Source of the DNA: Tessaracoccus flavus
Lineage (GTDB): Bacteria > Actinomycetota > Actinomycetes > Propionibacteriales > Propionibacteriaceae
NCBI RefSeq assembly: GCF_001997295.1
Contig: NZ_CP019605.1
Location: forward strand, 2,542,001 to 2,606,000
Direction of reading: 5' to 3'
DNA: 64,000 nucleotides
Shown here: positions 12,355 to 61,115 of the stretch, piece after piece
Layout of the letters: every line of letters begins with the position of its first letter
How positions within the stretch are numbered: the stretch's first letter is position 1
Program-made: the position numbers and the translations under genes
The notes under the pieces: generated by a model
The model's database searches: none
Told to the model about the DNA's origin: nothing
What the model saw: the letters and a program-made list of their open reading frames with translations, nothing else

Positions 12355-12413
12355 GTGGGTTCCTCCTGTTGGAATGTGTTGTTCACACGTTGAATGTCTA
12401 AGTTGTGGTTTCC

Positions 12414-12490
12414 CTTGAGCGGGCTGCACTCAAGCCTAGCGCCTTGAGCCCGCCCGGCTCAAGTTTGAAGTTGAGTACACCAGACTCAAC
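12414..12490. promoter_or_regulatory. Three HAIR (HspR) operators upstream of dnaK
   Basis: The HAIR consensus is CTTGAGT-N7-ACTCAAG. Site 1 (12414-12434) is CTTGAGC-N7-ACTCAAG, one base off. Site 2 (12443-12463) is CTTGAGC-N7-GCTCAAG, a perfect inverted repeat. Site 3 (12470-12490) is GTTGAGT-N7-ACTCAAC, also symmetric. Centres are 29 and 27 bp apart. They fall 60-136 bp upstream of the dnaK start. Confidence 0.9.
12433..12462 (-). promoter_or_regulatory. Predicted dnaK promoter
   Basis: On the minus strand a -35 box TTGAGC (12462-12457), an 18-nt spacer and a -10 box TAGGCT (12438-12433) are readable. The -35 lies in the second HAIR site and the -10 touches the first, so bound HspR would block RNA polymerase. 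This is inference from sequence alone. Confidence 0.6.
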
Positions 12491-41728: not shown

Positions 41729-42486
41729 CGCGGCATGGCCTCCAGCACGGGGCCGAAGGACTTTTCGATCGCATCACCGAGCCTGGTCAGATGATCCTCG
41801 TCCACCTCGCCGGTCCACTCATCCATGAAGGTCTTCTTGAACTCGATGGCCAGCACGCAGCCGACGCCGGGATAGCGGCCGTGGACGAACCAGGCCAGGT
41901 TCTGGCCGAGGAACTTGACGTTGTCGCGCACATCGAAGCCCTCGTCGAGCATCGTCTGACGGAACGCGCCGACGACGGCGCCGAACGTCACGTGGTCGAC
42001 CGACCCTGTCCCGAGGTTCACCTCGGGGTTCTCTTCCGCGGGTGCCGGCTCGGCGTCAGCCCCGTCGCGGCGATGGTTGTAGGAGTGGATGTCATAGAGG
42101 ACGAACGGGCCCCGGGCCGCCACCTCGTCGAGCCGCTCGGCGAGCGCGGCGAAGAACGAGTCGTACTCCTCCATCGAACGCTCGACGACGTCGTCGGGCA
42201 GGGACCCCGAACTCCAGACGTCCAGGTCCCAGCAGTCGGCCGGGCTGCGGTAGACGGTCTTCTCGCGCACCCGGTTGAGGTCCATCTCGAACCGGGAGCG
42301 GTGCACGACGATCTGCGCCGGGGCACGGGCGGCGATCCGGTCGGTGTGGGGGTCCTCTTCCCGCAGGCGGTCGGCCTCGTCGAGGATCATCAGGTCGGCG
42401 ACTTCCGGGCGCAGGTCGTGCCCGGCGTGGATCGCCGATGCGATCAGCTGGCCCGACCAGTCCCCTCGAAATTCGTAAGCGTCCAT
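41725..42486 (-). CDS. N-formylglutamate amidohydrolase-family protein
   Basis: A 253-residue protein of the FGase family of zinc amidohydrolases. Motifs seen are SAIHAGHDLRPEV, VVHRSRFEMDLNR (the Arg/Asp-rich family signature), VLYDIHSYNHRRDG and a late VLAIEFKKTFMDEW. The classic role is the last step of histidine degradation, but no hut genes are near. In this arrangement with DUF1704 and ATP-grasp proteins its substrate is probably different. It is first in the three-gene operon. The ATG is at 42486. Confidence 0.88.
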   Translation of the reverse strand: MDAYEFRGDWSGQLIASAIHAGHDLRPEVADLMILDEADRLREEDPHTDRIAARAPAQIVVHRSRFEMDLNRVREKTVYRSPADCWDLDVWSSGSLPDDVVERSMEEYDSFFAALAERLDEVAARGPFVLYDIHSYNHRRDGADAEPAPAEENPEVNLGTGSVDHVTFGAVVGAFRQTMLDEGFDVRDNVKFLGQNLAWFVHGRYPGVGCVLAIEFKKTFMDEWTGEVDEDHLTRLGDAIEKSFGPVLEAMPR

Positions 42487-42555
42487 CCGGCCATTCTTGT
42501 GGAGCGGATCAAGCCTTGGCCGGAAACCGGCGAGAATGCGCCGGCCGGCTACGCC

Positions 42556-43155
42556 TCAGCCGGCGTGGATGTACACCTTCTCTGGGCCGACGAAACAGGT
42601 GACGGTGGGTTTGCCGACCAGGCACTGCGTGTCAAACGCGCTTTGCCTGACGGGGTCTGGCACGGCGGGCAGGGTGACGGTGGCTCCCTGCGGCCGGTCC
42701 GCGGCCGGCACTGCACCGTAAGCTTTGAGTATCTCCTGCGCAAACTCGCAACTCGACTTACCCGTGGTAGCAGTGCCGTTCTGGCAGTCTGTCGCCTCCT
42801 CCGGCACGCCGGGGAACGGGGGTGAGTAGGTGGGCGATGCAACAGCCGTGGTGGTTGGCGTGGGCTCGGGCTCATCGGCTCCCATCAGTTGGTCGCCCCA
42901 GGCCCACCAGACCCAATAACCAACGCCGAGGAGTGTCAGAAGTGTCAGTCCCCTTAGCACTCCCCGTTTTCTGCCCGCTTTCGATGAGTGGTCTCCCAGC
43001 AACTGCTTGGGGCCTTCGTCGATGGTTCCGCCAGTCGACTCGGAAAGAGCAACACCCTTCGCGGGACCCTCCATCCCACACAGTTCACAAGCAAGTTCTG
43101 AACCGCTCCTGCGCTGGCCACACCAACCGCAGTTGCGCGTTTGTGACGTCATCAC
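42556..43155 (-). CDS. Zinc-ribbon, single-TM, secreted-tail protein of the GTPase cluster
   Basis: A 199-residue protein, last in the accessory cluster. The N-terminal zinc ribbon is CGWCGQ...CELCG (about residues 9-27). One membrane helix follows at about 70-87 (LRGLTLLTLLGVGYWVWWAW), then a Pro/Thr-rich linker and an extracellular C-terminal domain with four cysteines (DCQNG, SSCEF, DTQCLVG, TVTCFVG), probably two disulfides. The start is GTG 43155 or ATG 43152; both overlap the stop of the preceding GTPase gene. The design mirrors the zinc-ribbon/TM protein at the other end of the cluster (59847-61115). Function unknown. Confidence 0.82.
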   Translation of the reverse strand: MMTSQTRNCGWCGQRRSGSELACELCGMEGPAKGVALSESTGGTIDEGPKQLLGDHSSKAGRKRGVLRGLTLLTLLGVGYWVWWAWGDQLMGADEPEPTPTTTAVASPTYSPPFPGVPEEATDCQNGTATTGKSSCEFAQEILKAYGAVPAADRPQGATVTLPAVPDPVRQSAFDTQCLVGKPTVTCFVGPEKVYIHAG

Positions 43156-44348
43156 TCGCCCCCGACCCTCTCGATAACTCCCTCAGCAGCCAACACCCAC
43201 TTGATCGGGTCTAGGACCCGGAACGGAGCGATCCCGCGGGGATTCGTCCTCCTATTCAAAGGCGGCTCGCCAAGCGCAGACGACACGAAGAAGCGGTGAA
43301 TCATTGGACCTCCCTTCGCGGGACGCTCCAGCTGATTGACTATGCCGACTGCACCGAGCATGGTGAGTAGTGATCGAGCCTCTTCGTGAAGCACCTGCCC
43401 GTCAGCCTCGTCGTATCTCATATCCTCAGGCGCCTCGCGATTGAAGGCTGCTCCCACGTTGGCGAGGCGCTTGGTCCAAGATCCGGCGCTGCCTTGGTCT
43501 CCCGTAGCCCCACCCTCCCCGATGAGCTGCAGAGTGTCGAACTTCGACAGGACGACAGCGAGTCTAGGCCGCGCGGCCCCAAGGATGTCCAGGAGATTAT
43601 CCAGAACGGCGCCGGGCCTGATCCCCACATCGTTCAGGTCCGTCAAGTGACCCTTCAACTCATTGCGAACTTCCGCGATCTGAGTGGGATCAAAGTGGAA
43701 TAGCACCATCGAGGCGTTGCGGAAGAACTGTAAATACGACTCGCGGTGGTTGCGCTCCAGGTCTTCCCCTGCGACATCGCGGAGCACGAGATAGGACTCC
43801 TGCTCCATTCGCCCAATCCTGCCGAGGCTATAGATCAGTGGTTCTTGCTGGTAATTCCCGGTTGTGGCGCTCCCTGTCGGCTCCATCATCTGGCGCGCAA
43901 CGATGAGGGTCTTGTGATAGTTCTCGTCATAGGTGTGGCGCGTGCTTCCGACCGGGGTCAGTTTGGACCGCAGCGACTCCACGAGACGCTCCAGCTTCTG
44001 CACCATGACAGCGATATATACGCTCTTCCCTGTGGACCGAGGTCCGGCGAGTGCGACGCACACCACACGTGCATCCATCCATCCGCTCGGCAACACGAAG
44101 TGGCAGGTTGGGCACACCCTAACGGCGGACTGTTTGCACTTGCGGCACGAAATCTTCTCCTCGGCCCGCCACCTCTTCGCCAGTTTCGGATCATCCGGCG
44201 CAGTCACGACCGTCAACGGACGGGATCTACGCTCCCTGCCGAACCATGCCGTGTACTGCGTATCGATGATCTCCGGGCACGAGCCTTTGCAGACATAGAG
44301 CGCGGGTGTCGCGCCGATCGGTGTGAAGCACTGGGGACACTGGCTCAC
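43152..44348 (-). CDS. Zinc-ribbon GTPase of the accessory cluster
   Basis: A 398-residue P-loop protein. Zinc-binding cysteine pairs lie at the N-terminus (CPQCFTPIG, CKGSC, ISCRKCKQSAVRVCPTCH). The GTPase domain has Walker A LAGPRSTGKSVY, a switch-like DVAGEDL (DxxG) and VVLSKFDTL, a variant of NKxD. These fit the TRAFAC-like DO-GTPase class that I recall from predicted bacterial conflict systems together with GAP1 proteins. The exact family needs an HMM check. The start is GTG at 44348, overlapping the upstream stop. It probably supplies the switch of this system. Confidence 0.8.
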   Translation of the reverse strand: MSQCPQCFTPIGATPALYVCKGSCPEIIDTQYTAWFGRERRSRPLTVVTAPDDPKLAKRWRAEEKISCRKCKQSAVRVCPTCHFVLPSGWMDARVVCVALAGPRSTGKSVYIAVMVQKLERLVESLRSKLTPVGSTRHTYDENYHKTLIVARQMMEPTGSATTGNYQQEPLIYSLGRIGRMEQESYLVLRDVAGEDLERNHRESYLQFFRNASMVLFHFDPTQIAEVRNELKGHLTDLNDVGIRPGAVLDNLLDILGAARPRLAVVLSKFDTLQLIGEGGATGDQGSAGSWTKRLANVGAAFNREAPEDMRYDEADGQVLHEEARSLLTMLGAVGIVNQLERPAKGGPMIHRFFVSSALGEPPLNRRTNPRGIAPFRVLDPIKWVLAAEGVIERVGGE

Positions 44349-45325
44349 GGTTGTTCTCCTTCAGTTTCGAGGCGGTAGGCCATCAAAGTGGCACTCACCA
44401 GACGATGCACGGAGGCCTCGTCGAGCGCGGGGACGCTGGCTGGCCTGAACGGGTCCACCTCTAAGCAGAACACGCGTGGGTCGCCGCTAACCGCAGAGAT
44501 AACGCGGTCCGCTCCCGGCCCGCAGAGCACGATAATGAGCGCGACAGTTTCCGGGATGACGTCTGGGGCGTGGTCGGTCACTACACACCACGCCTGTCCT
44601 CCTGACGGGATCGGTTCGTAGAGCTCCACTCTGGAGATCTGACCGATTGACGCGAATTGGCGTTCAATTTCTTGCGAGACCTCCATCGCGGCAACTGAGC
44701 GCCAGGGATCGCGGGAGCCGGCTACCCTCAGGTCCAACTTCTCATCGTGCCCGACCACGAGATCGACCCCGGAGATGCATTGTGCGACAGCCGTCAGCGC
44801 GCCCTCTCGAAGCCATGTGCGCATGGATGCTGTGCCATCGATCACTATCGCAATGTCAATGCTCTGCCTCGAGCGAAGCTTGTTTCCCCTGAGCCCCAGT
44901 GCACCCGCCGCTGAGAGCTGTGCCTGACGGACCAGCGGCGGAGTCTCCACGTTGGCTCCGCCGATCGTGGACAACTCTGACTTGCCGTCACCGACAGCCC
45001 GCAGCGACGCCACTTCAACCACCCGGTGCCCACCCACATCGAGATCGGTCAGCAGGATGCGCTCCCGACCGCCGACCGGAGCGAGAGTGATGAACGCCTT
45101 CGCCGACGGCGACATGTCCTGGCCGGTTGTGGATTCGACCTGGAGCGTGACGCCGTCGACGTCAGGCTCCACGTAGATCGTTCGTCCGACCTCGTACGAG
45201 GTTGGTGCTCCCAGCGCTGAAGCGATCAGCAGTCTCGCCCTGTCCGTCACGTGGTTCAGGGTTACGTCGAACCCAGTGCCAATCACTACAAGACTCGCGC
45301 CCGGACCCACAGTTCTCTGTCTCAT
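44345..45325 (-). CDS. vWA-like protein of the GTPase cluster (cytosolic)
   Basis: A 326-residue protein. The N-terminal half (about 1-150) is beta-rich. The C-terminal half is a von Willebrand A-like domain with IDIAIVIDGTASMRTWL, a MIDAS-type D-x-T-x-S variant, followed by VVTDHAPDVIPE and VALIIVLCG. It has no signal peptide, so it is cytosolic. The ATG at 45325 overlaps the upstream stop as ATGA; a start at 45460 within the GAP1-like gene is rejected. vWA domains mediate metal-dependent protein contacts and often accompany NTPases in bacterial systems. Confidence 0.78.
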   Translation of the reverse strand: MRQRTVGPGASLVVIGTGFDVTLNHVTDRARLLIASALGAPTSYEVGRTIYVEPDVDGVTLQVESTTGQDMSPSAKAFITLAPVGGRERILLTDLDVGGHRVVEVASLRAVGDGKSELSTIGGANVETPPLVRQAQLSAAGALGLRGNKLRSRQSIDIAIVIDGTASMRTWLREGALTAVAQCISGVDLVVGHDEKLDLRVAGSRDPWRSVAAMEVSQEIERQFASIGQISRVELYEPIPSGGQAWCVVTDHAPDVIPETVALIIVLCGPGADRVISAVSGDPRVFCLEVDPFRPASVPALDEASVHRLVSATLMAYRLETEGEQP

Positions 45326-47916
45326 TTGCTGCCCCCTAGTCCTTTCATGAGCTTTGCGCCGAGCCCGGCCGACTTGATCACGCCACGCTGGCGGAACCAA
45401 CGCAGGGCGTTTCTGTGGATGGCCTGTGCGGCCTTTTCGCCCATTTTCGCGGTATACCATTCGAGCGCCTCAACGATGGCACCCTCAGTAACCTCCTGGT
45501 CGAGCGAGGCGACCCGAATGAGCCTCTCGACGACACTGTCGCCATCGCTCGGCTTAAAGTCGAGAAGGAGGGAGCGCACTGGATCTTGCCCGATCAGAGA
45601 TTGATCTACGACGTATGGAAGAACAGAGCGAACGAAGGTCGATGTGTCTCCACCGGGCAGCGACCTAGCGAAGAACTGCGCTCCATCCTGGATTATGGAC
45701 TCGGAGGGCTTGGGCTGGGTGAGGCGATTCCTTACCTGCACGGCGAAATCCTTGTCGGCACGCGAGACGAGCGCAGTCGTAGCCATGACGAGCAAAATTC
45801 CTTGGATCTGTTCATTGAGAACGACGCCCACAGACGCGGCTGAAGTAGTCAACGTATCGAAAACCGATCGGACGCTAGCCAGTTGGTAAGGCTGGTTCCA
45901 GTCGCCGCTGACCAATGTCTCGTACGCTGCGGCCACTCGATTTCGGTGACCTTGCGAGCTAGATTGCAGTACCTGCTGCAGGAGCAGCCGAAGCTTTGGA
46001 TCCTGCACATCGGCGCTGAGAATCGACCGATCAAGAACCTGACGCGGCACGAAGCGACCCCAGGCAGCTAGGAGTTCTCCACTTTGCTGCGGCGTTAGCG
46101 TGACCGGGTCCGAACGGCTAGACCGCCATCCTTGACTGCGCTCCTGGCACGCCCGCCACACCTCCATGAAGTCGAGGCGCAGCCGATCTGCCTCTGAAAG
46201 CGCAGCTTTGTTACCTGCCAGACCGTCGAGAGCTTGGAGGCCGAGAGCGTTAAACCGGCGGTTGTCGGGCTCAAGGGCCCGGTTCGAGGTTAAGAAGTCG
46301 AACGTAGCAATCTTCAAGCGATCTAGTATTCGGCCTGGCAGCCTGGTCGTCGGCGCGAGGATCAATGCTACTTCTTGAGTCAGGGCGATGGTCAAGGGCC
46401 TCCGCGGCGCGTGGGCATCCCAACTCTTCACGAATCCCTCTGTCTTGAGGAGAGCCGGAACGAGCGCCTTGTCGGCCGCCTCCTCGACGCTGGCCGCAAT
46501 GTCGGGAACGGTCTGCCATCCCAGGTGGTCGACGAGGTCCACGAACCGTAGAGCTGCGCGAGTTGCTGATTCTGAGTCGAGCCGGGAGAGCTTGGCGGTG
46601 AGATCACGGGCCCGCAGCGCGGTGCCACCGGATGGGAGTCCGGGTTTATAGGATGGCACCACGTCCGGCGCGTCGGCCAGCCAGGCTGGGTCTGCAAATA
46701 CGGAGTCCAGGTAGGCCGCGGTCGCCAGCCTAAGAATGTGCGTGCTGCACCTCTCCTTCTCCAGGCTCTGAAGTGCGGACCAGCGCTCCTGGGTTGTGGC
46801 GCCCATGGAACGGAGCAGGGCACGCTGCACTGCGTCGGCCAGTTCTGGTGTATCTGCCACACCGGGAGGGGCGGCCTGGGCGACGACACGGACCAGCGCC
46901 GCATCTAGCTCGGCCCCGGGACGGAGAAAGGCGCGCAGCGCGAGCCACCACGCCGGATCGTTCGAGTCACGGCCCGGTATCTGAAGCTCAAGCGCGTTGA
47001 GATCAGCCACGTAGGCCTCGAGGTCGGGGGCCATCGCAACCTCCTCGAACATGAGCGTTGACCACGGCGTCACCTCGACCTCGTCACCGCGGGTGGTAAG
47101 GTGCGGAGCTTCGCCAAGGACACCGAGGCTCGGGCTCTCTTCAGCATCGATCACGACTGCGTTGCCCCATTGCTCGACGGTCTTGCGCAACTCCGGGAGC
47201 AGGCAGACTAAGTGGAAACCCTGCGCGTCGAGTTCGTCTCCAACGGGGGCAGTCTCCAGCGTGGAGAAGTAAAACGAGCGCGACGTTCGACCGGACATGC
47301 ACAGGGAAGCCGCCTGCAACCATCCAGCTGCTTCGTCGGTTTCTCCAGCGATGAGCACCACAAGTGGCCCGGTCCCTCGTAACCGCGCGTGCAGGGCGTC
47401 GAGCAGGACCGCGAGCACCCCAGGGCGCCAGACTTTGCCCTGCCCCAGGAAGACACCCACGGTGCTGGGGGACATATCCATGTTTAGGGTTCCGCCCTCC
47501 GTCAGCGACGACGCATCAACCGCATCTGCCCCAAATGGCGTCAGCCAGGAATTCGACCGCCACGCGAAAGCTGGTCGTTCAAGAGGCCGCGCTGGAATGG
47601 CGCAGTGGGTGAAGACGTTCCCGGGCCTACCGCTGCGGTCCTGGCCCGCTGACACACTGTGGATCAGCACGGGAAAGGCGAATTCGCTGGCCTTTAGCAC
47701 CTGATGGGCGAGCCGCCGCGGCCAAAGCGCGGCCTCCTCACGCGTGACGAACCTTCCAGCTTCAGGGCTCGGCAGCCGTGTGGGGATGTTTGCTAGGAGG
47801 ACGGACTGCTCCTCTGGCAACAACTGGCCGACAATATCCTTTGTCTGCCAGCCTCCGCTGCCCTCGGACTCATACGACGCGTAGGTCAGTTGGGCACGGA
47901 GTTGGACGCTCCTCAT
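45322..47916 (-). CDS. GAP1-like (GTPase-associated) protein
   Basis: An 864-residue protein. The N-terminus (YASYESEGSGGWQTKDIVGQL, then SAGQDRSGRPGNVFTHCAIP) matches the pattern I know from GTPase-associated protein 1 N-terminal domains. The middle has a beta/alpha segment with VLIAGETDEAAGWLQAA and SRSFYFSTLETAP. The long C-terminal half (about 350-864) is predominantly helical without membrane segments. In known settings GAP1 proteins neighbour GTPases, as here. It lies 4 nt after the Fn3-like gene. A scaffold or effector role is plausible but unproven. Confidence 0.72.
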   Translation of the reverse strand: MRSVQLRAQLTYASYESEGSGGWQTKDIVGQLLPEEQSVLLANIPTRLPSPEAGRFVTREEAALWPRRLAHQVLKASEFAFPVLIHSVSAGQDRSGRPGNVFTHCAIPARPLERPAFAWRSNSWLTPFGADAVDASSLTEGGTLNMDMSPSTVGVFLGQGKVWRPGVLAVLLDALHARLRGTGPLVVLIAGETDEAAGWLQAASLCMSGRTSRSFYFSTLETAPVGDELDAQGFHLVCLLPELRKTVEQWGNAVVIDAEESPSLGVLGEAPHLTTRGDEVEVTPWSTLMFEEVAMAPDLEAYVADLNALELQIPGRDSNDPAWWLALRAFLRPGAELDAALVRVVAQAAPPGVADTPELADAVQRALLRSMGATTQERWSALQSLEKERCSTHILRLATAAYLDSVFADPAWLADAPDVVPSYKPGLPSGGTALRARDLTAKLSRLDSESATRAALRFVDLVDHLGWQTVPDIAASVEEAADKALVPALLKTEGFVKSWDAHAPRRPLTIALTQEVALILAPTTRLPGRILDRLKIATFDFLTSNRALEPDNRRFNALGLQALDGLAGNKAALSEADRLRLDFMEVWRACQERSQGWRSSRSDPVTLTPQQSGELLAAWGRFVPRQVLDRSILSADVQDPKLRLLLQQVLQSSSQGHRNRVAAAYETLVSGDWNQPYQLASVRSVFDTLTTSAASVGVVLNEQIQGILLVMATTALVSRADKDFAVQVRNRLTQPKPSESIIQDGAQFFARSLPGGDTSTFVRSVLPYVVDQSLIGQDPVRSLLLDFKPSDGDSVVERLIRVASLDQEVTEGAIVEALEWYTAKMGEKAAQAIHRNALRWFRQRGVIKSAGLGAKLMKGLGGSK

Positions 47917-47920
47917 GGAC

Positions 47921-49969
47921 CTAGCCCAGCCTGAGTTGAACGACAGCTGGATCGATCACAGCGAACTGATTCAGCTCGTCAAGGCCGATGTCTGCCATAA
48001 GCCGCACGTACCCGGTTGCGGGAACCGTCGCCTCCCATGTCGTTTCAGTCCAGCCTTCGCCCACCTCTGAAGCTCGGATGCTCGGCATCGCGACGGCCTC
48101 GGCGTCGTCTTTTACGCCGACCTGCACCCGCTGGCCATCCAACGCGTCTAGGGGAAGGCGCTCGGGATTGTGCACGAGTACCAGGGGTGGCAGAGTGCCC
48201 AGGTGCTGCGGACTGCGGAGCTTGAGGCTGAGCTTCCTGGTCTTACCGAAGGCGACCATGGATTTGGCTCCCTTGATCTGGTAATGAACCACCTTGAGCC
48301 CTGGGTAGGTGAGCACGTAGGGCCTTCCCTGGACCTGCTGTCCTTGCTGCATAGACACGGGGACAAGCGCCACGTTGCATGGTTGCGACCCCAGCACGAC
48401 CACGAGCCCACCCTCGCGGTTGTAGTGGTCTGCGGAGATGCTGGCTAGGTGCTGGCCTTGGATCGCGGCTTCTGCATCGATACCGAGAGGGTATCGGAAC
48501 ACCTGGACCTTCTCGAAAGTGTACTCGCCCCCGTCTTTCTCCGTGTTGGTGGGCCACGTCAGCGTGACCACTTGATGCCGAACACGCTGGTGAAGTTTCG
48601 CCTCGGTAATCGCCACCTGCGTTGCCACTTTGGTGACTGTTCTCGATGGGTGAATTCGATCTCCCAGGCTAGTCAGGGCGGTGAAGTGCACCCGACTCCA
48701 GCCCTCATACCAGGGAATGTCGCGAATCCTAACCTTGTCCCCCACGCGGTCAGTGACGGGATAGTTCAACCGCTCGCCCAGCTTGAACTCTTGAAGGGTG
48801 GACGCCGGATACGCTTGCGTGTCGATGCCAGCCTCAGGCTGGTCGTTGGTGACGTAGATGTCGACCCTGCCGGCCCCCGGAGGGGTCCACAGGATGTCCA
48901 GTACAATCCCCCCCCTCTCGTCGCGGCGCTCTTGTACCTCGAGGTCGCGCACCGGCTCAATCTTGTGCGGCACTTCGACCACACGCTCGATGAAGGGAGA
49001 AATCTCGCCCACGCCATCATTCAGCAGCTCGACGCCAACGGAATAGATGTACTGTTTGCCACTCTCCACGTCGGAATCGACGAACCCAGCGACGTTGTCT
49101 GAACCGCTGTTAACCCTGAATTGCGGGTCCGTGGGTAGACCCGGCGCCCCGTGCAACGGTTTGCGGTACACCTGAACCCGACCGTGCCGAACCCCGATGT
49201 CTCGCCAAGTGCCGACGACCCGACCTTGATCGGGGGCAATCGAGACATCCTGCGGCGGCACCACGACAGAACTCTCGGCCAACAGCACGGGCTGGGTGAG
49301 AGGTGCTTCCTCCGTCGAGTTCGAACCGTGTGCCCACACCTGATAATGGAGTCGGGGCCAGTCAGGCAAGGTAACGTCAACCAACGATGCATCGGTGGTT
49401 ATCGCCGTGTAGGAGCTGTACTCGGGAAAGTCGACGCGACCCTCAGAACGGGTCACGCGATATATGACGTGTGGGGCAGAAAGAGCATCCCAGCGCAGAA
49501 GAAACCCGGAATCCATCATCTCAAGGCTCAACTCCTCCCGCGCCTCATGCCGGACAGTCCGATCACTGCTGACAAACTTGGGGAGAGCCGACCCGTGTGT
49601 CGGGAAGAACTGCCGATCCTCACTCGCGTCCGGCAGTGCCACCGGAATGGAGTGTTCCTGTCGCGTCGCCGTCGAGGGCTTATTAGAACTCTGGGGCGGC
49701 GCACTCCCCGCACTTGAAGAAGATGACGCCGCCGATTCGGCTGTGCCAGTCCGTGCGAGAGCGCTGTTGATGATCATCGACAGGGGTAGCGCATGGTCGG
49801 TGTACGTGCGCGGGATTCGCGCCGCGACGGCCTCCGTCGGCAGTCCGTTGTTCTTCACCGCGTCCATGGCCATCAGCTTGAGTTGGGCCGGCTGCATGCC
49901 GTCGAGATCGTTCTGGTCGCAATACCGCTCCAGCTCAGACAGGATCTGACCGGCGAGCTCTTGAGTCAT
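47921..49969 (-). CDS. Fn3-like beta-sandwich protein of the GTPase cluster
   Basis: A 682-residue protein. The N-terminal 70 residues are helical (ILSELERYCDQNDLDGMQPAQL), and a Ser-rich linker follows (about 75-105). The rest is a series of about 90-residue beta-sandwich units resembling fibronectin type III: LEMMDSGFLLRWDAL, VVGTWRDIGVRHGRVQVYRKP, GIVLDILWTPPGAGRVDIYVTN and VVTLTWPTNTEKDGG. There is no signal peptide, so the Fn3-like units should be cytosolic, which is unusual. It may be a recognition arm. The ATG is at 49969, 48 nt after the preceding gene. Confidence 0.72.
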   Translation of the reverse strand: MTQELAGQILSELERYCDQNDLDGMQPAQLKLMAMDAVKNNGLPTEAVAARIPRTYTDHALPLSMIINSALARTGTAESAASSSSSAGSAPPQSSNKPSTATRQEHSIPVALPDASEDRQFFPTHGSALPKFVSSDRTVRHEAREELSLEMMDSGFLLRWDALSAPHVIYRVTRSEGRVDFPEYSSYTAITTDASLVDVTLPDWPRLHYQVWAHGSNSTEEAPLTQPVLLAESSVVVPPQDVSIAPDQGRVVGTWRDIGVRHGRVQVYRKPLHGAPGLPTDPQFRVNSGSDNVAGFVDSDVESGKQYIYSVGVELLNDGVGEISPFIERVVEVPHKIEPVRDLEVQERRDERGGIVLDILWTPPGAGRVDIYVTNDQPEAGIDTQAYPASTLQEFKLGERLNYPVTDRVGDKVRIRDIPWYEGWSRVHFTALTSLGDRIHPSRTVTKVATQVAITEAKLHQRVRHQVVTLTWPTNTEKDGGEYTFEKVQVFRYPLGIDAEAAIQGQHLASISADHYNREGGLVVVLGSQPCNVALVPVSMQQGQQVQGRPYVLTYPGLKVVHYQIKGAKSMVAFGKTRKLSLKLRSPQHLGTLPPLVLVHNPERLPLDALDGQRVQVGVKDDAEAVAMPSIRASEVGEGWTETTWEATVPATGYVRLMADIGLDELNQFAVIDPAVVQLRLG

Positions 49970-50017
49970 TGCACACTTCCTAGCGTTGAGTACTTCGGGG
50001 TGAGGTGATGGCGTGAA

Positions 50018-52588: not shown

Positions 52589-55500
52589 TAGAGTACGTCC
52601 TGGAACATGTCGGCCCCGGCGGCTGTGCCCGGGGTTTCGGAGGGGATGGCCGCTGCCGACCCGAGGCGCTCCTCCAGGTCGCCAAGTGCCCACAGAATGT
52701 CGCTCACGAGGTCACGGATCACGGGGACAGCGGCAGCATCCGTCCTGTTGCCAACCTTGAAGTCGCGCAGCTTCAGGACACTGCCCCGCGCCCGGGTCAG
52801 GAAGTCTCGAATGGCCTCGATCCGCTCGTCAAGGCTGTCCAGCGTGGCCAGGTCCTTCACTCTTGAAGTACCGGGGAAGTCCGCTTCACCTCTGAGCACC
52901 TGTGCGAGCTCCAGCTCAGCGGCGATCCACCCCTGCGTGGTCCGCACTTCGTAGGAGTCGTACAGGCTGCGAAGTGCGTGATACGGCTTCAACGACGACA
53001 ATGGTTCGCCACCGGCCCCCGCTTGAAGCATAGCCACCAGGTAGGCCTCTAGCACTGACGGCAGCAGATCACCGACGCTGCGTCGCTGGGCGAATGATGT
53101 AAGCATCGGAGACGGAAATGGCAGCCACTTGCTGGTGACGTTGTCGAACACCTCAACAGACTCGCTCTGCGCGTGGTGCTGCACGTCAGGGAAGCGGACC
53201 TTCCCGACGATCTGTCCCACGAACCAGCCCGCCACCATCGCGCGCCGCTCGTGGTCGCCCATGGGCAACCCGGCCGGTAGCGGACGCGCTCGCCGGCCAT
53301 CCCAGAAGTGCATGCGCTGCGTCGAGCTCGTCGATGCCGCCCACTGTTCCCGAATGGGGTCCAAAACGGAACTGAAGCAGATAGGCAGGTAGTTCTGATA
53401 CGAGCCGAAGATGTCGATCTTCTTGACCGAAGACGGCGGCTTGAGTGAGGCGTTGAGGTTACCCAGTGTCGTCGGCTGGTCGATCGTTGCATCCGTAGTA
53501 ACCACCTTGCGCAACGCATCCGGAAGAATCGGGTCGTGCTCGAAGGGTATGTCCGAGATCTTGTAACGGAAGAGCACTGCCTCCCCGTACAGGGCTGCGA
53601 CCACTTCCGGACTCGGTGCCGCCAACGGCATCGCTGCGCTCAACGCCTGCCGGAATTTCGTCACAATCAAGCTGCGACGCACCGCTTGATCGGCCAGCGG
53701 CGCGTTGTTGACGTAATCCGCCAGGGACTCGTTGGCGAACTGCTGGAAAGACGAACCTCGACGCCACACAAACTCCCTGGCCCGCTCGAGGATCTCCTCG
53801 GGCGACAACGTCGCTTCCACGTTCAGGGGGCGCGCCACAAGAGGTTTGCCCGCGGGGTCCGCGTCGAAGTACTCCGGTACCCATTCGGATCTCTCCCGAA
53901 TCAGCCCGCCGGGGGGCTGGGTGCCGTCCGCCGTCTCCCACACGCCTGAGAGCACCGCCTGCCAAAGGTCGAATTCGCGTGACGGACCCTCAGTCAGCGC
54001 ACGGCTCACATCCCTTGAGAACTGATCTAGGTACTCATCGGACGAGGTCACGAGAATCTCGTTGAAGGCGCGGGCGAAACGTTCAGAAACCTTGGATTCC
54101 CCAGGAGCCGGCCACTGCCCGTATTCGGCGGTAGCGAGCACTGCCAGGCTGGTCTGCCCACCCCGTGCGTTGTCAACCGCCGAGCGGAGCATCCTGAGCC
54201 GCTCTGTCAGCTCCTTGCCGATCGGGTCCAGCACATGCTCACGGAAGTCGCGCCAGATCTCCGCGAGCCCCGCGGCCAGTTCTCCGTAGAGGTGAGGCTG
54301 AACCGAGGCCAGCAATCCGTCCCTGAGGCTTTCGCCGAGGGCCGCACCGTCGCCCACTCTGCCGCGGATCGCTCCTACTAAATGGTTGAGTTTCTCCGGC
54401 ATACCAAGAATAGGGGCGGATACCGACGCCTGGCTCGCGAGTTGGGACATCCGTCCCAGTTCGGAGCTCAGCGTATTGAGATGCTCGAGAGCTAACGGGA
54501 TACCGTAGGTCGCCAGCGCCGTGGAGACCTGCTCCTGCACCCGGCTCACCAACTCGCCCTGATAGGTCCAGAGGAACGACCTCACCTGGCGCGACACGGA
54601 GCGTTTGGCTTCGTCCGATCCCAAGCTCAGGTGCCGCCTGACCTCCGCCAGCCACTGCACCGGGTCCTGACCGTCGGCGGCCGGAATGTTGGAAACGGCA
54701 CCCTGGGCGACGTCTGCGGCGAGGGCCCGGGTTGCGCTCTGGGGCCACACGTACGTCGAAAGCCACGAACCGAAACTAGGATGCTGTTCGGGATCGTGTA
54801 GCTGTAGTGCCGCAGCGGTCCGCGGCCACAGACGGGCGTTGAGCCGTTTGAGCACGGTGCCCGGATCGTCGCCGGGACCCGCGTCGCGGAGGTGCCCTTC
54901 CAGCGCCTGATCCACGGCACCGCGCGCCAATCGTTGCGCCGCGTATTCGGCGTACCGATCCCGGCCCATACTGAGCGCGCTGTATCCGAACGAGCCCCAG
55001 TCCAACAGGTTCGGCGACTCGTCCCAGCCGAAAGCCTGCACCGTAGGCGTGAGGAATGAGTGGTTCACCAGATCGAACGCCTCATACTGCGCCAAGGCAC
55101 CTGGAGATCGCATCAAAGCAGCCAGCCCCCGGCCTAGACCCCTGTAGACGTCCTTCGGTGTCCCGTCTCCGAACGGGGCCTGGGTTGCCCCGACGTGGGC
55201 GCTCACGGGGAAGACCCTCATGAAAGGACTCGCCGCACCAGAATCGGCCACCACTCCAGCCGAGCGCATGTCCGTGGTGTCAGTGGGTACGGAGGCCTTG
55301 GTCTGCGCGGCCACGATTTCGCCGAGCATGGCCAGGGAATTCGGCCTCACGCCAGCCCGTTCGTTGCGCGGGAGCGAGTTGAATACGTCGGCAGCCACCA
55401 TAAACATCCCCACTAGCCCGTGCGGATAGCCGGGCAGGTTGCCCAATAGCCGTGCAACGTCGAGCGCCATAGAGGCGCCCGCCCCGCCCGCCATGGAGGA

Positions 55501-56028
55501 GACTATGAACACGAGCGGATCGGCGCCCATCTGGTACTCGAAGCCCATAGCATCGGCCACTCCGGACATGTCCGTGTGTGCGGCGGATGAATTGAGCCGC
55601 TGCCACGCTGCGCTCAGATTCGACTGGAGGTAGCTGTAGCGATTCAGCGTGACCATCCGTCCGATGGCCCGGACCTGACCGGCGCCAGCCGAGATGGCTA
55701 CTGGATACTTCGCCGGGTCGCGGACCGCCCACGGCGCGAACCGGTCGAGTAGTGGGCCGGTGGCCATCGCGCTGTCGAGGGCGGGGTACAGGCCGGCCTG
55801 GACTCCCAACCCGATGTAGCTTCCGCCGCGCGCCTGGACCCCCTCAATCCCGGAGGCGTTGCCCTGCGGAGTGACGGGCACGTCGACCTCGACGAACTGC
55901 CATCCCTCCGGTAGTTTCTCGACGCCGTGGGCGCCCAGCTCCGAACTCAACTCGTCCATCATGTGGGCCAGGGTGGCGGCTCCAGATCCGCCGCATCCGA
56001 CGACCAGGAACCTACGAAGGAATGCCAT
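52588..56028 (-). CDS. Tubulin-like NTPase (Tubulin_2 type)
   Basis: An 1146-residue protein with a tubulin/FtsZ-like GTP-binding domain in its first 350 or so residues. FLVVGCGGSGAATLAHM is the nucleotide loop, and SSMAGGAGASMALDVARLLG is the tubulin signature (GGGTG[S/T]G variant). The rest (about 400-1146) is a long, mainly helical region unlike FtsZ, possibly coiled coil. It ends FQDVL. Tubulin-like proteins of this size occur in actinobacterial gene clusters with vWA and GTPase partners; their function is unknown. The ATG is at 56028, 16 nt after the vWA gene. Polymer formation is possible but not shown. Confidence 0.85.
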   Translation of the reverse strand: MAFLRRFLVVGCGGSGAATLAHMMDELSSELGAHGVEKLPEGWQFVEVDVPVTPQGNASGIEGVQARGGSYIGLGVQAGLYPALDSAMATGPLLDRFAPWAVRDPAKYPVAISAGAGQVRAIGRMVTLNRYSYLQSNLSAAWQRLNSSAAHTDMSGVADAMGFEYQMGADPLVFIVSSMAGGAGASMALDVARLLGNLPGYPHGLVGMFMVAADVFNSLPRNERAGVRPNSLAMLGEIVAAQTKASVPTDTTDMRSAGVVADSGAASPFMRVFPVSAHVGATQAPFGDGTPKDVYRGLGRGLAALMRSPGALAQYEAFDLVNHSFLTPTVQAFGWDESPNLLDWGSFGYSALSMGRDRYAEYAAQRLARGAVDQALEGHLRDAGPGDDPGTVLKRLNARLWPRTAAALQLHDPEQHPSFGSWLSTYVWPQSATRALAADVAQGAVSNIPAADGQDPVQWLAEVRRHLSLGSDEAKRSVSRQVRSFLWTYQGELVSRVQEQVSTALATYGIPLALEHLNTLSSELGRMSQLASQASVSAPILGMPEKLNHLVGAIRGRVGDGAALGESLRDGLLASVQPHLYGELAAGLAEIWRDFREHVLDPIGKELTERLRMLRSAVDNARGGQTSLAVLATAEYGQWPAPGESKVSERFARAFNEILVTSSDEYLDQFSRDVSRALTEGPSREFDLWQAVLSGVWETADGTQPPGGLIRERSEWVPEYFDADPAGKPLVARPLNVEATLSPEEILERAREFVWRRGSSFQQFANESLADYVNNAPLADQAVRRSLIVTKFRQALSAAMPLAAPSPEVVAALYGEAVLFRYKISDIPFEHDPILPDALRKVVTTDATIDQPTTLGNLNASLKPPSSVKKIDIFGSYQNYLPICFSSVLDPIREQWAASTSSTQRMHFWDGRRARPLPAGLPMGDHERRAMVAGWFVGQIVGKVRFPDVQHHAQSESVEVFDNVTSKWLPFPSPMLTSFAQRRSVGDLLPSVLEAYLVAMLQAGAGGEPLSSLKPYHALRSLYDSYEVRTTQGWIAAELELAQVLRGEADFPGTSRVKDLATLDSLDERIEAIRDFLTRARGSVLKLRDFKVGNRTDAAAVPVIRDLVSDILWALGDLEERLGSAAAIPSETPGTAAGADMFQDVL

Positions 56029-56044
56029 TGACTTGTCTCCTCAA

Positions 56045-58788
56045 CTAGTTGGCGAAGGGATCCCATGACCCCGATTGATCGTCGGATGCCTGCGGCGGCG
56101 GTGCCATCGGCGGTGACTGCTTGCTGGGACGATCGCTTGTGGCACGTTTGATTTCAGTCAGGCGTGGGCTCGCTGAAGGTGTCCATCCCGCACTGCCTCC
56201 GTCGAGCCCGAAGGGATCGCCTGCGGCTGCAGCTGTCGCGTTGCCGGGCGTATCGGTGTCCCCTGCGTCCTCAACCAGTTCGTCGATCAACGCAGGGACG
56301 CGCCGCTCAGCGTCCTCGAGCAGTGCGTCCCGAGCCTCAGGCCGGGCACCAGGCGCGGTCAAGACGAGCAACTCGACGTGTTGGCGATCGCCTGGGGTAA
56401 ACAGTGCAACCCACTGGCCGGTCAGAGCCAGCGGAAGTAGGGCTTGGCGCCGTCTGCCGTGAGGCATCGGCTTATGCTTGGACACGCCGATGCGGTCGCC
56501 GGCTTCGACCAGAACATAGCCTGAGCCGAACGGGGAGGCGCCCATTCTTGCCACGAGGACGGCGCCACCCACCTCAAGGCGACGCGTGCCGCCGCCGGTG
56601 ACCGACTTGAACTCCCGCGCGTCCTCCGCCCGCCAGGCTAGGCGTCTGCCATCGCGGAGCACAGATCCATCGTGGACTTCGACGTCCATCGAAACAGCGA
56701 GCAAGCCGCCTGGCGGGATCTTCGAGGCCAACAGGAACTTCAGTAGGTACGCAAGAAGGATTGGTATTCCTGGGCCGAACAACGCGGCGATTACGAGTGT
56801 GAGCCAGAAGGAGGTCGGGTTGAGGTCCTTGCTCAGTTCGGCGGTGAACCGGACTGGCAGAGTCTGCGTCTCGCCACCCTCAAGCGGCATCATCGAGACG
56901 TCGAAAGTACCTTGCAGCGCGCCGTTCCCAGCATCGTCGCTGGTGAGCAGCAGAGGCAACTCCGCATCTAAACCGTCGCTGACGCTGAAGCACGAGTCCG
57001 GCGTGGAGTTTGCCGAGGAGATGGATGCTTGAGTGACTTCAACAGGCGAGGCCTCCACCACCGCTGAATTTGGGACCAGCCACAGGCAGCCCGGTCCCTT
57101 GACCTTCAGCGTCGCTGACAGTGCCGGAGGCCCCTCCGCCGCCCCGAAGTCCACCATTCCATCCAAGCTTGGGTAGCCAAGAGGAGGTTCGATGACGAGG
57201 GGCACGTCCACCACCTGGGGCGTCAGCTCGGTTCCCGAAACGGATTCACCGCTGTTGAGGACAGCGTCGGCCGTCGTGACATTCAGCCGCATTCTGAGCG
57301 TCTGCTTGCCCGGCTCAAGGCCCTCTGTGTCCAGTTCCACCGCATCGTTCAAGGTGTCGGCCCCGAGGGTTGCAAGGGAGCGTGGATCACCGTCTTCACC
57401 CAGTATCGAGACGTCCAGTGCCACCTCTCCTAGCAGGGTGCTCGGATCAACTGCGTCACCCGCTGAGTTGATCACCTCGAACCGAAGTGGGTAGGAGTCC
57501 CCTGTGCGAAAAGGCTCGTCTTGCTCCACGAATCTCGGAGTAAGGTCGCCTGCAATGTAGATGCTGGTGCGAGCCTTCTTTCCCGCAGAGGCAGAGTTTG
57601 GGTCGACGAAAGTAACCGTCCACTGTCCAACCCATTGCTCGGAGTCCTCTGCTTCGAGCGTGACCACGAAGGAGCGATCACTGAGCCAGGTGTATTCGCC
57701 TCTCGCCCCTGAAAGATCGAGCGCCTGTGGTTTCTCGAGGTCTCCCCTGACGAGTCCCCCTGCGCCCCCCCGGGTGCAGTGAGTTGCACCTCAATACCGT
57801 CAGCGTCGGCAGAGCCCAGCAACTCGACTCTCTCAACGCTCGCGTCGAGGACGAAATTATGGGTACCTGCTAGGCAGACATCGCCTTGGCAGATCTCGGT
57901 CTCGTTGACGGGTCGCTGCCTCGTCACCGAGTCGAAGGCGAAGATCAGTGAGTCGATATCGGCAGCAGTGACGAAGTCTCCTGGGACGGGTTGAGTCTGC
58001 GCCCCACAGGTTCCCTGCCCACGCCCTCCTGTGACCACCCTCCTCATGAGGTCAAATGCGTCGGCAGACTGGTCGTCCCCGTGGAGTCCCACCCCGAACA
58101 TGACGATGTCCTGCAAGCGGATCTGGTCAGCCAGCCCGCCCGCGCGACACAGCGATTCAGCCGCGGCCGCCGTGGCAGCCAGTTCGCGCTCACGTGTTGA
58201 CATGTCATTGTCGGGGGCGAACGGCCGTCGTGGGTTGGCCTCACCCTCAGCGCGTTCGTCCGCGCTGAGAGACACGTCCAGCTCGCCATCAGAGAAGAAG
58301 AAGATGGCCTGGCAACCCGCTCCGTCCGTGAGCCTGACGTCGGCCAGTGACTTGCGTGCACCATCGAGCCCGAGCCAGTAATCGGTCCCGCTGTCAGTGT
58401 TTCTATCCGCGAAGGACTCCAGATCAGTCAAGAGCCCGTTCAGGTCCGCTCCAGCTAAGGTTCGCCACTGCGACTGATAGTCACGGTACGAGGTCCCAAA
58501 CCCTGCAAGCATCACTTGAAGGTCGAGCTCTGATCGATCCGCCAGGTTCGCCAATCGCTGTACCAGGTAACGGCCGGCGAGCACTCGCCCCGCGTCTGGG
58601 TCAGACTCCTTCAGGCTAAGCGACTCGTCGAACAGGAGAACTAGCTGTCCCTGCCCTGTCCCAGCCATGCAGGCCGTAAAACGATCTATCGCACGATCGG
58701 CCGGTTCGTCGGCGTGTGAAACGGCTGCGCTTAGCGCGAGGCCGAGAGCAAGCACAAGAGTGAGAAGTTGCGGCCAGTTTCGGCTCAT
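56045..58788 (-). pseudogene. Membrane vWA protein, split by a one-base shift in a G7 run
   Basis: One gene in two frames. The first part (ATG 58788) has a signal peptide (MSRNWPQLL to SHADE), a vWA domain with VLLFDESLSLKES MIDAS and AIFFFSDGELD, then a beta domain up to QLTAPGG. At 57765-57771 (C7 on plus, G7 on minus) the frame changes. One more G would join it to the second part, whose open frame continues GLVRGDLEKPQALDLSGARG and EYTWLSDRSFVVTLEAED. That part has beta domains, one TM helix (LVIAALFGPGIPILLAYLLKF) and a cytosolic tail with GDPFG, ending SWDPFAN. The joined protein is about 914 residues. Causes could be mutation, sequencing error or programmed -1 slippage. Confidence 0.8.
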
Positions 58789-59138
58789 AGTTTCCCTACA
58801 AACAGCGCGAGTTGGTAGGCGCACCACACAACGGCGACCATGGTCATGCCAATCGCTATCCAGTAGAGCGCTGGGAACAGGGTTGATTGACCGTAGACAG
58901 GCTTGAGGCGTTGACGTGTATCGCGATTGACAAAGAAAGCAATCAGCCCAAACGACGCCGGACCAGCCAAGAACCAAGCCCCCAACAGCACCCAGCCCTG
59001 CGCCATGAACGCCAGAACGCCCCCTAGAACCGCAGTTACCAATGCACTGACAATCCAGACCAGCGGGGTGCGCCCTACGTCAAAGCTGACGGCGTCGGCT
59101 GTGGCACCATCATCGGTACCGAACGGATCATGACTCAT
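58785..59138 (-). CDS. Small three-TM protein with N-terminal DPF motif
   Basis: A 117-residue membrane protein. The N-terminus MSHDPFGTDDG carries a DPF motif shared with neighbours. Three hydrophobic helices follow (about 27-50, 52-72 and 90-115). Function unknown. Its stop overlaps the vWA gene start as ATGA, so the two are coexpressed. It probably belongs to the membrane part of the GTPase/tubulin/vWA cluster. Confidence 0.78.
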   Translation of the reverse strand: MSHDPFGTDDGATADAVSFDVGRTPLVWIVSALVTAVLGGVLAFMAQGWVLLGAWFLAGPASFGLIAFFVNRDTRQRLKPVYGQSTLFPALYWIAIGMTMVAVVWCAYQLALFVGKL

Positions 59139-59149
59139 CGGACTCCTTT

Positions 59150-59722
59150 TCAGCCGAATAGTTCAAGGAGACGCGTGATCAGTCTGCCCGCCACGTCCGC
59201 CGATGATGTGAGGGCCTCGATACTGTGGCCGATGTTGTACTGCAAAACCTGGATCCCGATGGCGATGCCAAGCGATGTAGCCGCCACGGGGAGCACGACC
59301 GAAGCGGCTAAAGCGATGCCGGAGCGGGCATCACGACGACGAGCGACCGACAGGATCGAGAGCACGAACGCCGCAAGGACGCCGACGAGCGCGACCGACA
59401 TCAGAGCGAGCATCAAAGTCATGTCATCGATGGCATTCCCGTGCAGCCGCACGGACGCCAGCGTCCCGTAGGTGACGACTCCCAAGAACATCGCTGCAAC
59501 GCCCACGGCCAGGAAAAGCGCAGAGCCTCGGCCAGTCGACGGACTCGCGGTCTGAGCTTTGGGCCCCGACGAGGAACTCCGTGCAACGCCGGCTGATCGA
59601 CGCTGTAGAACGAGGGGGTCCTCCGCGATTAGGGGTTCCTCTTGACTGGTCCGGGCGAAGGGGTCCGTGGAATCATCCGACACTCCGCTGTCAAACGGAT
59701 CGTACGGGTGCTCGCTCTGCAT
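59150..59722 (-). CDS. Three-TM protein with two N-terminal DPF motifs
   Basis: A 190-residue membrane protein. The acidic, Ser-rich cytosolic N-terminus (about 1-65) carries YDPFDSG and TDPFART. Three helices follow (about 68-90, 100-125 and 135-160) and a short amphipathic C-terminus. The ATG at 59722 has GGGGAGAG upstream. The 124-bp gap to the previous gene (59723-59846) may hold an internal promoter, but I cannot identify one with confidence. Function unknown. Confidence 0.78.
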   Translation of the reverse strand: MQSEHPYDPFDSGVSDDSTDPFARTSQEEPLIAEDPLVLQRRSAGVARSSSSGPKAQTASPSTGRGSALFLAVGVAAMFLGVVTYGTLASVRLHGNAIDDMTLMLALMSVALVGVLAAFVLSILSVARRRDARSGIALAASVVLPVAATSLGIAIGIQVLQYNIGHSIEALTSSADVAGRLITRLLELFG

Positions 59723-59846
59723 GGAACTCTCCCCTCAGCGTGGCAGCCCCCATGGCGCATCGCTGACGCCTGACAGCGTAGCGAACGGCGATGCTCAATA
59801 GGGCGCGGCCCCGAATAATGGCCAAAAGTGGATGTAGGGCGCACCA

Positions 59847-61115
59847 TCATGAGTGGTGGGGTGCTCGCATCCTCCGCGGCAGGCACTGGTTTTGCAGAAC
59901 CTCGCCAGACAGCTCGGGGAACCGCGCGGCGCACCATGCCTCCGCTTCAGCCGCAGAGGTGAGCCCCCCAGGATCGGCGACCGTGAACCATAGGTCTCTT
60001 CCGCCTTGTTTCCCCCAGTCTGCCGTGCGGAGCATTTTCACGTTCACGTCGTACAGGCGCTGAACAAGATCCTCGTGGAACGTGAGGATGTCCGAGAAGT
60101 AGAACGTATTGGAGCCGTTGGCCGCTGTCTGGAGCGGGTCGCTACTTCCTGGGTACTTCGCCGAAAGCACAAGGACCCACCGTTCGTCGTAGCGAAGATC
60201 TGCCAGGCCCAAGCGGCGGTACGCCTCCAAGGCTTCTTCCGCCGCTACTTGCTGCCCACCAGATCCGCCCGCGACATCTACCCTGACAAGGCCGTCTTGA
60301 CGTGCGACCCACCATCCCGCCGTGGCAGCTTCCTGTCTACCGCTGGCCGACGTGGTGTGGAGCGTGAACTGCACTTTCTGTTTCGCTGCATCGAAGACAA
60401 CATCCGAAGCGCGCGCGGACGAAAGCCCTCCCCAATACGATTCATAGCTCGCCCAGTCCTCCCGGGATTGTCGAGCTGTAGTCAGTAGATCCCACCCTGC
60501 GCGGGGGTTTCCAGCAGCCGTGGCAAGGTACAAGTGGACGGAAGCAACTGCCTCATCGTGGCCGATTGGCCCGCTGGCAGAGCTGGGCGCCGCCACAGAC
60601 GCCGCCGTGCTGGGGAGCGCGGTGGCTGGCGCCGCCGTCACCGTGACCGTCTCAACGACGGGGGGCGGTGCCTCGACCGGTGGGACCGTAGCTGTGACCT
60701 CCGTATCTGGGGTTGTCGGACTGGCGGGTTCGTCCGGCGTGGACGGCGTGGCGCTATGGCTGCTAGCCGATGGTCTGGGCAGAGGCGCGGCGAGGTCGGG
60801 ATCTGCCCGCCCCTGCACGAGCAGCCATACTGAGGCGGCCACCACGGCGAGCATCGTGAGAGCAGTTAGCAATCGCGGAGCGAGTCGCCTTGCGTGTTCC
60901 TGTCTCAGAGTCTCCGATCGCGCCGGAATCGGCGGCTGATCGCCAGGTGGGGGTGAGTGAAGCTGGGTCTCCTGTTGGAAATCTCCAGCTTTGGGCGTCA
61001 GACTCCCCGGCGAGGAGGCCTCTGGGATCGTCGGCGTGGCGAGCACACCGTTGATTTGTCCGCAATGCTGGCATACACCGGGCGAGGTTCGTTGACCGCA
61101 CAAATCGCAGAACAT
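59847..61115 (-). CDS. Zinc-ribbon, single-TM protein at the head of the GTPase cluster
   Basis: A 422-residue protein. The N-terminal zinc ribbon is CDLCGQRTSPGVCQHCGQ (residues 3-20). A Pro/Gln-rich cytosolic stretch leads to one TM helix (about 83-101). A long Pro/Thr/Ser/Ala-rich stalk (about 108-185) follows. The globular extracellular domain (about 190-300: AVASVHLYLATAAGNPRAGWDLL, YWGGLSSA) looks NTF2-like, with a C-terminal extension of three cysteine-bearing segments. It is the first gene of the minus-strand cluster. The ATG at 61115 follows a G-rich site. It could sense an outside signal. Confidence 0.8.
   Translation of the reverse strand: MFCDLCGQRTSPGVCQHCGQINGVLATPTIPEASSPGSLTPKAGDFQQETQLHSPPPGDQPPIPARSETLRQEHARRLAPRLLTALTMLAVVAASVWLLVQGRADPDLAAPLPRPSASSHSATPSTPDEPASPTTPDTEVTATVPPVEAPPPVVETVTVTAAPATALPSTAASVAAPSSASGPIGHDEAVASVHLYLATAAGNPRAGWDLLTTARQSREDWASYESYWGGLSSARASDVVFDAAKQKVQFTLHTTSASGRQEAATAGWWVARQDGLVRVDVAGGSGGQQVAAEEALEAYRRLGLADLRYDERWVLVLSAKYPGSSDPLQTAANGSNTFYFSDILTFHEDLVQRLYDVNVKMLRTADWGKQGGRDLWFTVADPGGLTSAAEAEAWCAARFPELSGEVLQNQCLPRRMRAPHHS

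Follow-up and report, generated by a model that had tools for sequence, protein, structure and literature searches.

Two gene-neighborhood studies describe the actinobacterial systems closest to the one reported here, an operon in a 64,000-nucleotide stretch of the Tessaracoccus flavus genome (the window; contig NZ_CP019605.1, positions 2,542,001 to 2,606,000, within a 3.22-Mb single-contig genome, G000). Makarova and Koonin (2010, PMC2875224) described the tubulin-like FtsZl1 family with its vWA and GTPase neighbors; in their account of the family, neither T6-H7 nor a C-terminal tubulin domain was found, and for lack of the latter the capacity to form filaments was left open. Kaur et al. (2020, PMC7159879) predicted the actinobacterial tubulin-theme layout of GAP1-N2/DO-GTPase systems. 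As given in their description of the class, its traits are GAP1-N2 together with GAP1-M, a DO-GTPase with a glutamate in the Walker B region and N-terminal zinc ribbons, one gene in which the tubulin domain is fused to helical sequence on its C-terminal side, an FNIII-HRDC protein, and a membrane vWA protein with a beta-rich domain. GAP1 usually lies downstream of the GTPase, an order that is typical rather than defining. Literature searches, mostly without subscription journals, found no experimental study of the class.

The operon is a copy of this tubulin theme, and the class is not new: it was predicted from gene neighborhoods in 2010 and 2020, and the window adds a member that is divergent and partly broken. 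The original prediction, made from the letters of the window, had taken the combination with a tubulin-like NTPase to be uncharacterized, whereas both accounts already describe it; its statement that GTPases with GAP1 neighbors occur in predicted conflict systems agrees with the 2020 account. New here are the tubulin fold of the tubulin-like protein (F) with its helical insertion, the weaker fold match of its neighbor (G), the shared ends of the two proteins, and the DPF/NPF tails of the membrane proteins.

As in the theme described by Kaur et al., the operon harbors GAP1-N2 and GAP1-M, a zinc-ribbon DO-GTPase, one tubulin gene in which the tubulin domain is joined to a helical middle (the structural model adds a second domain), a membrane vWA protein with a beta-rich part (shown via relatives of gene DE), and further membrane proteins. 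There are several differences from the published description. GAP1 (I) precedes the GTPase (in the order I, J, K) in this copy, as it does in 69 of the 92 loci compared; HRDC and FNIII are undetected by Pfam here, DE is broken here, and we found no mention of C, G, or the tail motifs in the description. With FtsZl1 the tubulin-like protein shares the N-terminal tubulin-like domain, the helical middle, and the vWA and GTPase neighbors; in contrast to the family as published in 2010, its model aligns to both tubulin domains.

Gene content and conservation of the operon

Twelve open reading frames (ORFs), A to L, lie on the minus strand between the genes for threonine synthase (61157-62614) and N-formylglutamate amidohydrolase (41725-42486). 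B (59150-59722) encodes a membrane protein of 190 residues with three hydrophobic windows. C (58785-59138; found in 83 of the 92 loci) is a core small membrane protein of 117 residues. D (57472-58788; 86 loci) and E (56045-57667; 86 loci) are the two parts of a broken core gene, DE, the former providing a signal region and an extracellular vWA domain and the latter a beta-rich region, a transmembrane helix, and a cytosolic tail. F (52588-56028; 91 loci) is the tubulin-like protein of 1146 residues, followed by G (50018-52588; 90 loci), which has 856 residues, a long hydrophobic stretch (a transmembrane hairpin), and a possible degenerate tubulin fold. H (47921-49969; 86 loci; 682 residues) sits where the published class has its HRDC/FNIII protein. 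I (45322-47916; 84 loci; 864 residues) is the GAP1 protein, J (44345-45325; 83 loci; about 326 residues) a cytosolic vWA protein, and K (43152-44348; 81 loci; 398 residues) the zinc-ribbon DO-GTPase2. L (42556-43155) encodes 199 residues with N-terminal cysteine pairs, a hydrophobic stretch, and an outer part.

Packing is tight from B onward. Gaps of 11, 16, 48, and 4 nt separate B from C, E from F, G from H, and H from I, respectively, while C and D overlap by 4 nt, F and G by 1 base, and K and L by 4 nt; J and K likewise overlap the genes before them. The GC content is 0.627 over 42556-59722 and 0.675 in the remainder of the window, and at third codon positions (GC3) it is 0.63-0.77 for the genes of the block and 0.89-0.94 for threonine synthase, the amidohydrolase, and the adjacent "microtubule-associated tyrosine carboxypeptidase" (MATCAP) gene. 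The single strand, the several 4-nt overlaps, and the lower GC content were thus correctly noted in the original prediction, and its GC profile has been run. Its count of eleven genes was wrong, as A is a resident gene and D and E are one gene, and so were two gene borders: by reading, the ORFs listed with 891 and 371 residues probably begin near 52588 and 45325, respectively. The start of J is our choice, set by the overlap with the stop codon of I.

A scan of named genomes returned 122 relatives of F, of which 80 were kept; with 11 congeneric loci and the window, these make up the 92 loci. The eight core genes stand in the exact order C-DE-F-G-H-I-J-K in 69 of them, which rules out a chance cluster and confirms by a gene-neighborhood survey that the cluster is conserved. 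The other 23 include loci cut by contig ends, loci listed with overlapping frames, the window itself, where the order is the same but D and E are separate, and G007, which is broken throughout. The counts of identities, motifs, and tails leave out G007 as well as G015b, a tubulin locus of another type. The genera represented include Mycobacterium, Rhodococcus, Gordonia, Williamsia, Nocardia, Corynebacterium, Arthrobacter, Brevibacterium, Microlunatus, and Curtobacterium; the control genome of Corynebacterium glutamicum, a species used in the laboratory, matches PF13809 and PF20013, scored per genome and not per operon. Across the 74 other loci with all families, the median identity to the window copy is 37% for F, K, and D, 33% for E, 29% for C, 27% for G and H, 26% for I, and 18% for J. 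Between close pairs it is 75% for F, 69% for K, 56% for H, 54% for J, and 52% for I, such that H, I, and J evolve faster than F and K. For B, the 92 loci yielded no clear homologue, with one weak match on the opposite strand. For L, no homologue was found at the other loci, and the 38 other congeneric genomes gave two weak matches (E 3.6e-4 and 6.7e-4). B and L are accessory genes.

D and E form one open frame in 84 of the 86 loci that hold both, so the secreted vWA and two-transmembrane ORFs, originally listed as separate genes, belong together. In the window, homology continues in the first frame as far as about 57663, whereas the open part of the second frame starts near 57790; the stretch is G-rich, and the break may reflect either mutation or an error of sequencing.

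The families named at the outset (Tubulin_2, GAP1, and DO-GTPase) are borne out by Pfam. F matches PF13809 (Tubulin_2; E 2.4e-42, residues 8-373 of 1146) and belongs to the FtsZl1 family. I matches PF20013 (GAP1-N2; 57.3 bits, E 2.2e-15) and PF20014 (GAP1-M; 32.1 bits, E 1.3e-7), each with a cut-off of 24, and K matches PF19993 (DO-GTPase2; 28.7 bits, E 1.3e-6), barely over the cut-off of 27. NCBIfam gave nothing over cut-off for the ten ORFs submitted. The glycines of the two tubulin-type GTP-binding loops of F are kept in 88 (GCGGSG) and 89 (SMAGGAGASM) of 90 rows. In K, the Walker A glycine and lysine are kept in 80 of 80 rows and D-x-A-G-E in 77, the other three being gaps; N-terminal cysteine pairs can be read from its sequence. 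Both proteins predicted to be vWA proteins retain residues of the metal ion-dependent adhesion site (the first aspartate and last serine in 84 of 85 rows of D; the aspartate in 76 of 82 rows of J), yet the window's own vWA ORFs match no vWA model in Pfam. Such models are matched by four of five relatives of DE, and two of four relatives of J show a weak TerF-like vWA match below the cut-off. The predicted Fn3-like protein corresponds to the conserved gene H at the position expected for the class; as neither H nor 10 of its relatives match Pfam, its "Fn3" label rests on the class description of 2020.

Insertion sites appear constant within groups of relatives, as judged from shared neighbors. 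By reading, the operon directly follows apparent prs (and rplY) and pth genes in three Propionibacteriaceae loci (L041, L042, and L102), and a chaperonin-like gene lies downstream of it in five Corynebacterium loci (L096 and L098-L101).

Tubulin fold of F, shared ends, and aromatic tails

The structural model of F shows a confident whole tubulin fold, with both tubulin domains aligned and split by a helical insertion. This insertion of about 300 residues and a C-terminal extension distinguish F from CetZ, TubZ, FtsZ, and tubulin, to which it is 10-17% identical in structural alignments. By sequence profile F has no relative in the PDB, and no tubulin is found among the PDB profile matches of F or G. 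As the model places the second tubulin domain behind the helical insertion, filament formation by FtsZl1 proteins is now testable. G also gives a tubulin-like fold match, weaker than that of F. A transmembrane window is present in all 89 of its homologues, and a conserved glycine-rich loop is absent from the first 260 residues of these sequences; since the GTP signature is missing, G is not classed as a tubulin GTPase. A viral fold library returned nothing at E <= 0.001.

F and G have similar C-terminal ends. A terminal phenylalanine is found at 63 of 90 loci in F and 62 of 85 in G, compared with 1 of 83 in H, 1 of 82 in I, 0 of 81 in J, and 1 of 48 in K. The last residues of F and G are identical at 63 of 85 loci (61 of 83 without near-identical loci). 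For representatives picked greedily by F identity, they agree in 17 of 21 below 55% identity, where none of 10000 shuffles reaches the last-residue score, and in 6 of 8 below 45% identity, where 88 of 10000 shuffles do so for the last residue and 1 of 10000 for the last three. When all 28 pairs of the eight core genes are compared, F and G stand out (z 5.0, 17 of 21), while the other 27 pairs have zero to four identical ends and z values of at most 2.9. The last three residues are mildly above the shuffles for C-F (40/5000), F-H (70/5000), and C-I (112/5000), which we read as noise among 28 tests. The ends of F and G co-vary. Ribosome-binding sites were rejected as the cause: Shine-Dalgarno-like words among the final seven codons were seen at 27 of 90 loci for F, 27 of 85 for G, 14 of 83 for H, 37 of 82 for I, and 24 of 81 for J. 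Both tails have a predicted local distance difference test score below 50, as expected of loose tails, and a shared degradation signal may also explain the match. The match of the ends offers two named partners and a short segment as a handle on the mechanism.

The membrane proteins carry a different motif, [DNS]P[FW]. It occurs 101 times in 77 C tails (13.2 when shuffled) and 203 times in 85 DE tails (14.6 when shuffled), whereas in F to K it is found at 0.4-1.2 times the shuffled level; amino acid composition is thus ruled out as the cause. C start codons were set by a rule of thumb, C tails shorter than 20 residues were left out (82 to 77 loci), and DE tails comprise the last 120 residues. 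Among the 77 loci, 48 have the motif in both C and DE, 15 in DE only, 5 in C only, and 9 in neither; where it is missing, W, GFG, and similar aromatic motifs are present instead, by reading. The window copy harbors two motifs in B and one in C, all DPF in the N-terminal tails, and two DPF in the cytosolic tail of DE. Within a locus, the C and DE tails resemble each other more than shuffled pairs do, with likeness values of 0.653 against 0.479 for 20 representatives (4/5000) and 0.71 against 0.498 for 9 representatives (40/5000). The main text of Kaur et al. (PMC7159879) contains neither NPF nor DPF, nor the terms "linear motif" and "low complexity".

Taken together, these features may describe a bacterial tubulin pair, an idea that we put forward tentatively and that is more doubtful than not. 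F would be the soluble GTP-binding subunit and G, with its transmembrane hairpin, a nucleotide-dead subunit of tubulin fold, the two sharing a co-evolving C-terminal peptide read by a common partner, while DPF/NPF sticker tails on surface-sensing vWA proteins would gather the complex. If true, a surface-triggered, membrane-anchored tubulin device would be present across many actinobacterial genera.

Acquisition and proposed function

Threonine synthase and the amidohydrolase are adjacent in five congeners (G030, G018, G021, G029, and G014), separated by 43, 53, 58, 126, and 85 bp, respectively. The DNA of these empty sites matches the window flanks at 77-84%, with nothing matching B-L. In the congeneric operons, F is about 31% identical to the window copy (25% in G023), and seven congeners share another site. 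A FastTree phylogeny groups the window copy with the metagenome proteins P0011-P0014 (support 0.999), and, through nodes of 0.919 and 0.996, it is linked with other genera ahead of the eight congeners, which form a separate group (1.0). Several of the closest named relatives of F belong to the Propionibacteriaceae (Granulicoccus, Ammonicoccus, and Enemella). The empty sites and the grouping apart from congeners point to horizontal gain of the block B-L. No direct or inverted repeats of at least 10 bases were found between the border stretches 59651-60050 and 42351-42700. In one further congener (G031; L156, 2571-5243), apparent sensor kinase and response regulator genes occupy the same gap, which suggests that it accepts different inserts.

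The best reading, which we would place a little short of an even chance, is that of a tubulin-like assembly, switched by GTP and tethered to sensors in the membrane, that acts in envelope defense or stress. The outer vWA domain of DE, together with B, C, and L, would sense a change at the cell surface, and the aromatic tails would gather the membrane proteins DE, C, and B. K, governed by GAP1, would serve as the on/off switch. Once switched on, F with GTP would assemble on a membrane platform formed by G, a common partner would read the end peptide of F and G, and the assembly would wall off or remodel a patch of membrane. The kept gene order, the kept nucleotide and metal motifs, the tubulin fold of F, the ends of F and G, the tail motifs, and the empty site are evidence for this reading. 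The membrane-linked NTP-switch machine proposed originally hence remains the best description, and nothing in the analysis points to its suggested role in secretion.

The purpose may be defense, envelope stress, or membrane remodeling; most likely, the system defends the cell envelope or responds to stress there. Either of these fits the TerD genes that flank 14 of the 92 loci, the fast change of H, I, and J, and the patchy spread of the system: F is matched in 11 of 39 congeners, and GAP1-N2 in 21 of 147 sampled family genomes and 10 of 29 genera. A slower, cell-wide role is suggested by the constant composition and by how seldom plasmids, and phages not at all, carry the system. The loci with TerD in the fetched flanks are L060, L045, and 12 others, a possible link to Ter stress systems, which the TerF-like matches of J relatives also recall. 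In contrast to those systems, the searched ORFs of the window include none that is TerD-like, and the vWA matches stay below the cut-off.

Several observations weigh against the assembly reading. DE is broken in this copy, and gene content is constant, unlike that of systems with swapped effectors. Profile comparison found no homology between F and G. Among 13 representatives (below 70% F identity) in which F does not end in phenylalanine, the last residue of G is the same in 7, similar in 2 (I/V and Y/F), and different in 4 (L055, L057, L060, and L075), where G retains phenylalanine; 4 of the 26 representatives with a phenylalanine-ending F have another residue in G. Over all loci, C and DE tails do not correlate in how densely they carry PW, other F, or Y. 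PADLOC matched none of the ten ORFs, which proves nothing either way on anti-phage defense, and relatives of F are found in 2 of 72,556 plasmid records (both Rhodococcus) and 0 of 50,697 phage records.

The infection-triggered conflict system proposed by Kaur et al. (2020, PMC7159879), in which an intracellular trigger acts through the GTPase/GAP1 switch to start tubulin-like assemblies that contain the phage or kill the cell, would account for the patchy spread, the horizontal gain, and the faster change of H, I, and J than of F and K. However, the core is constant (69 of 92 loci), the extracellular vWA domain and membrane tails point to the surface, and PADLOC, plasmids, and phages provide little or nothing in its favor; we consider it unlikely, if still credible. 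The membrane-remodeling or vesicle machine proposed by Makarova and Koonin (2010, PMC2875224), serving normal envelope upkeep, fits the whole tubulin fold of F, the membrane proteins in the core, and the sites common within groups of relatives (the seven congeners above and five Gordonia loci that share one site). Yet the 28 of 39 congeners without a match show that the system is dispensable for growth, and it was gained recently at this site, making this rather improbable. That the window holds a decaying, functionless insertion is suggested by the two frames of DE and the unusual composition. We deem it very unlikely, given that the other core frames are open, the motifs are kept, and the only frame break, which falls in G-rich sequence, may stem from a sequencing error.

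Neighboring and resident genes

A (59847-61115) has a cysteine-pair N-terminus, a transmembrane segment, and outer domains, and adjoins threonine synthase. It is matched in 8 of 39 congeneric genomes, including this one, three of the eight by the C-terminal part only. In G061, G010, and G028, its homologue lies directly behind threonine synthase with no operon adjoining: in G061, which lacks an F match, it stands between threonine synthase and the amidohydrolase, and in G010 and G028 the F gene lies elsewhere, either on a different contig or at a distance of about 0.64 Mb. Because of these three sites, A probably predates the block and is ruled out as a member of the system, although its GC3 of 0.68 is block-like and counts against a resident origin. 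In G015 (L034/L035, 2257500-2297499), a second Tubulin_2 gene of another type, with an open frame of 1238 residues and a different neighborhood, lies about 10 kb from a homologue of the C-terminal domain of A.

The MATCAP gene (40559-41728, minus strand) invites a functional link to the tubulin-like protein, which is rejected; in the seven relatives retrieved, the gene also adjoins the empty site, so its adjacency is taken as coincidence. Elsewhere in the window, an ORF on the plus strand (10777-12393) matches PF10712, "NAD-specific glutamate dehydrogenase" (E 1.4e-141), antisense to an ORF of 645 residues (10492-12429, minus strand); it presumably resembles the known antisense artifact of a chaperone gene. 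A protein of 2133 residues (13837-20238, minus strand) combines alpha-amylase, three X25, pullulanase N2 and C-terminal, and Ig-like domains, as a large surface starch degrader.

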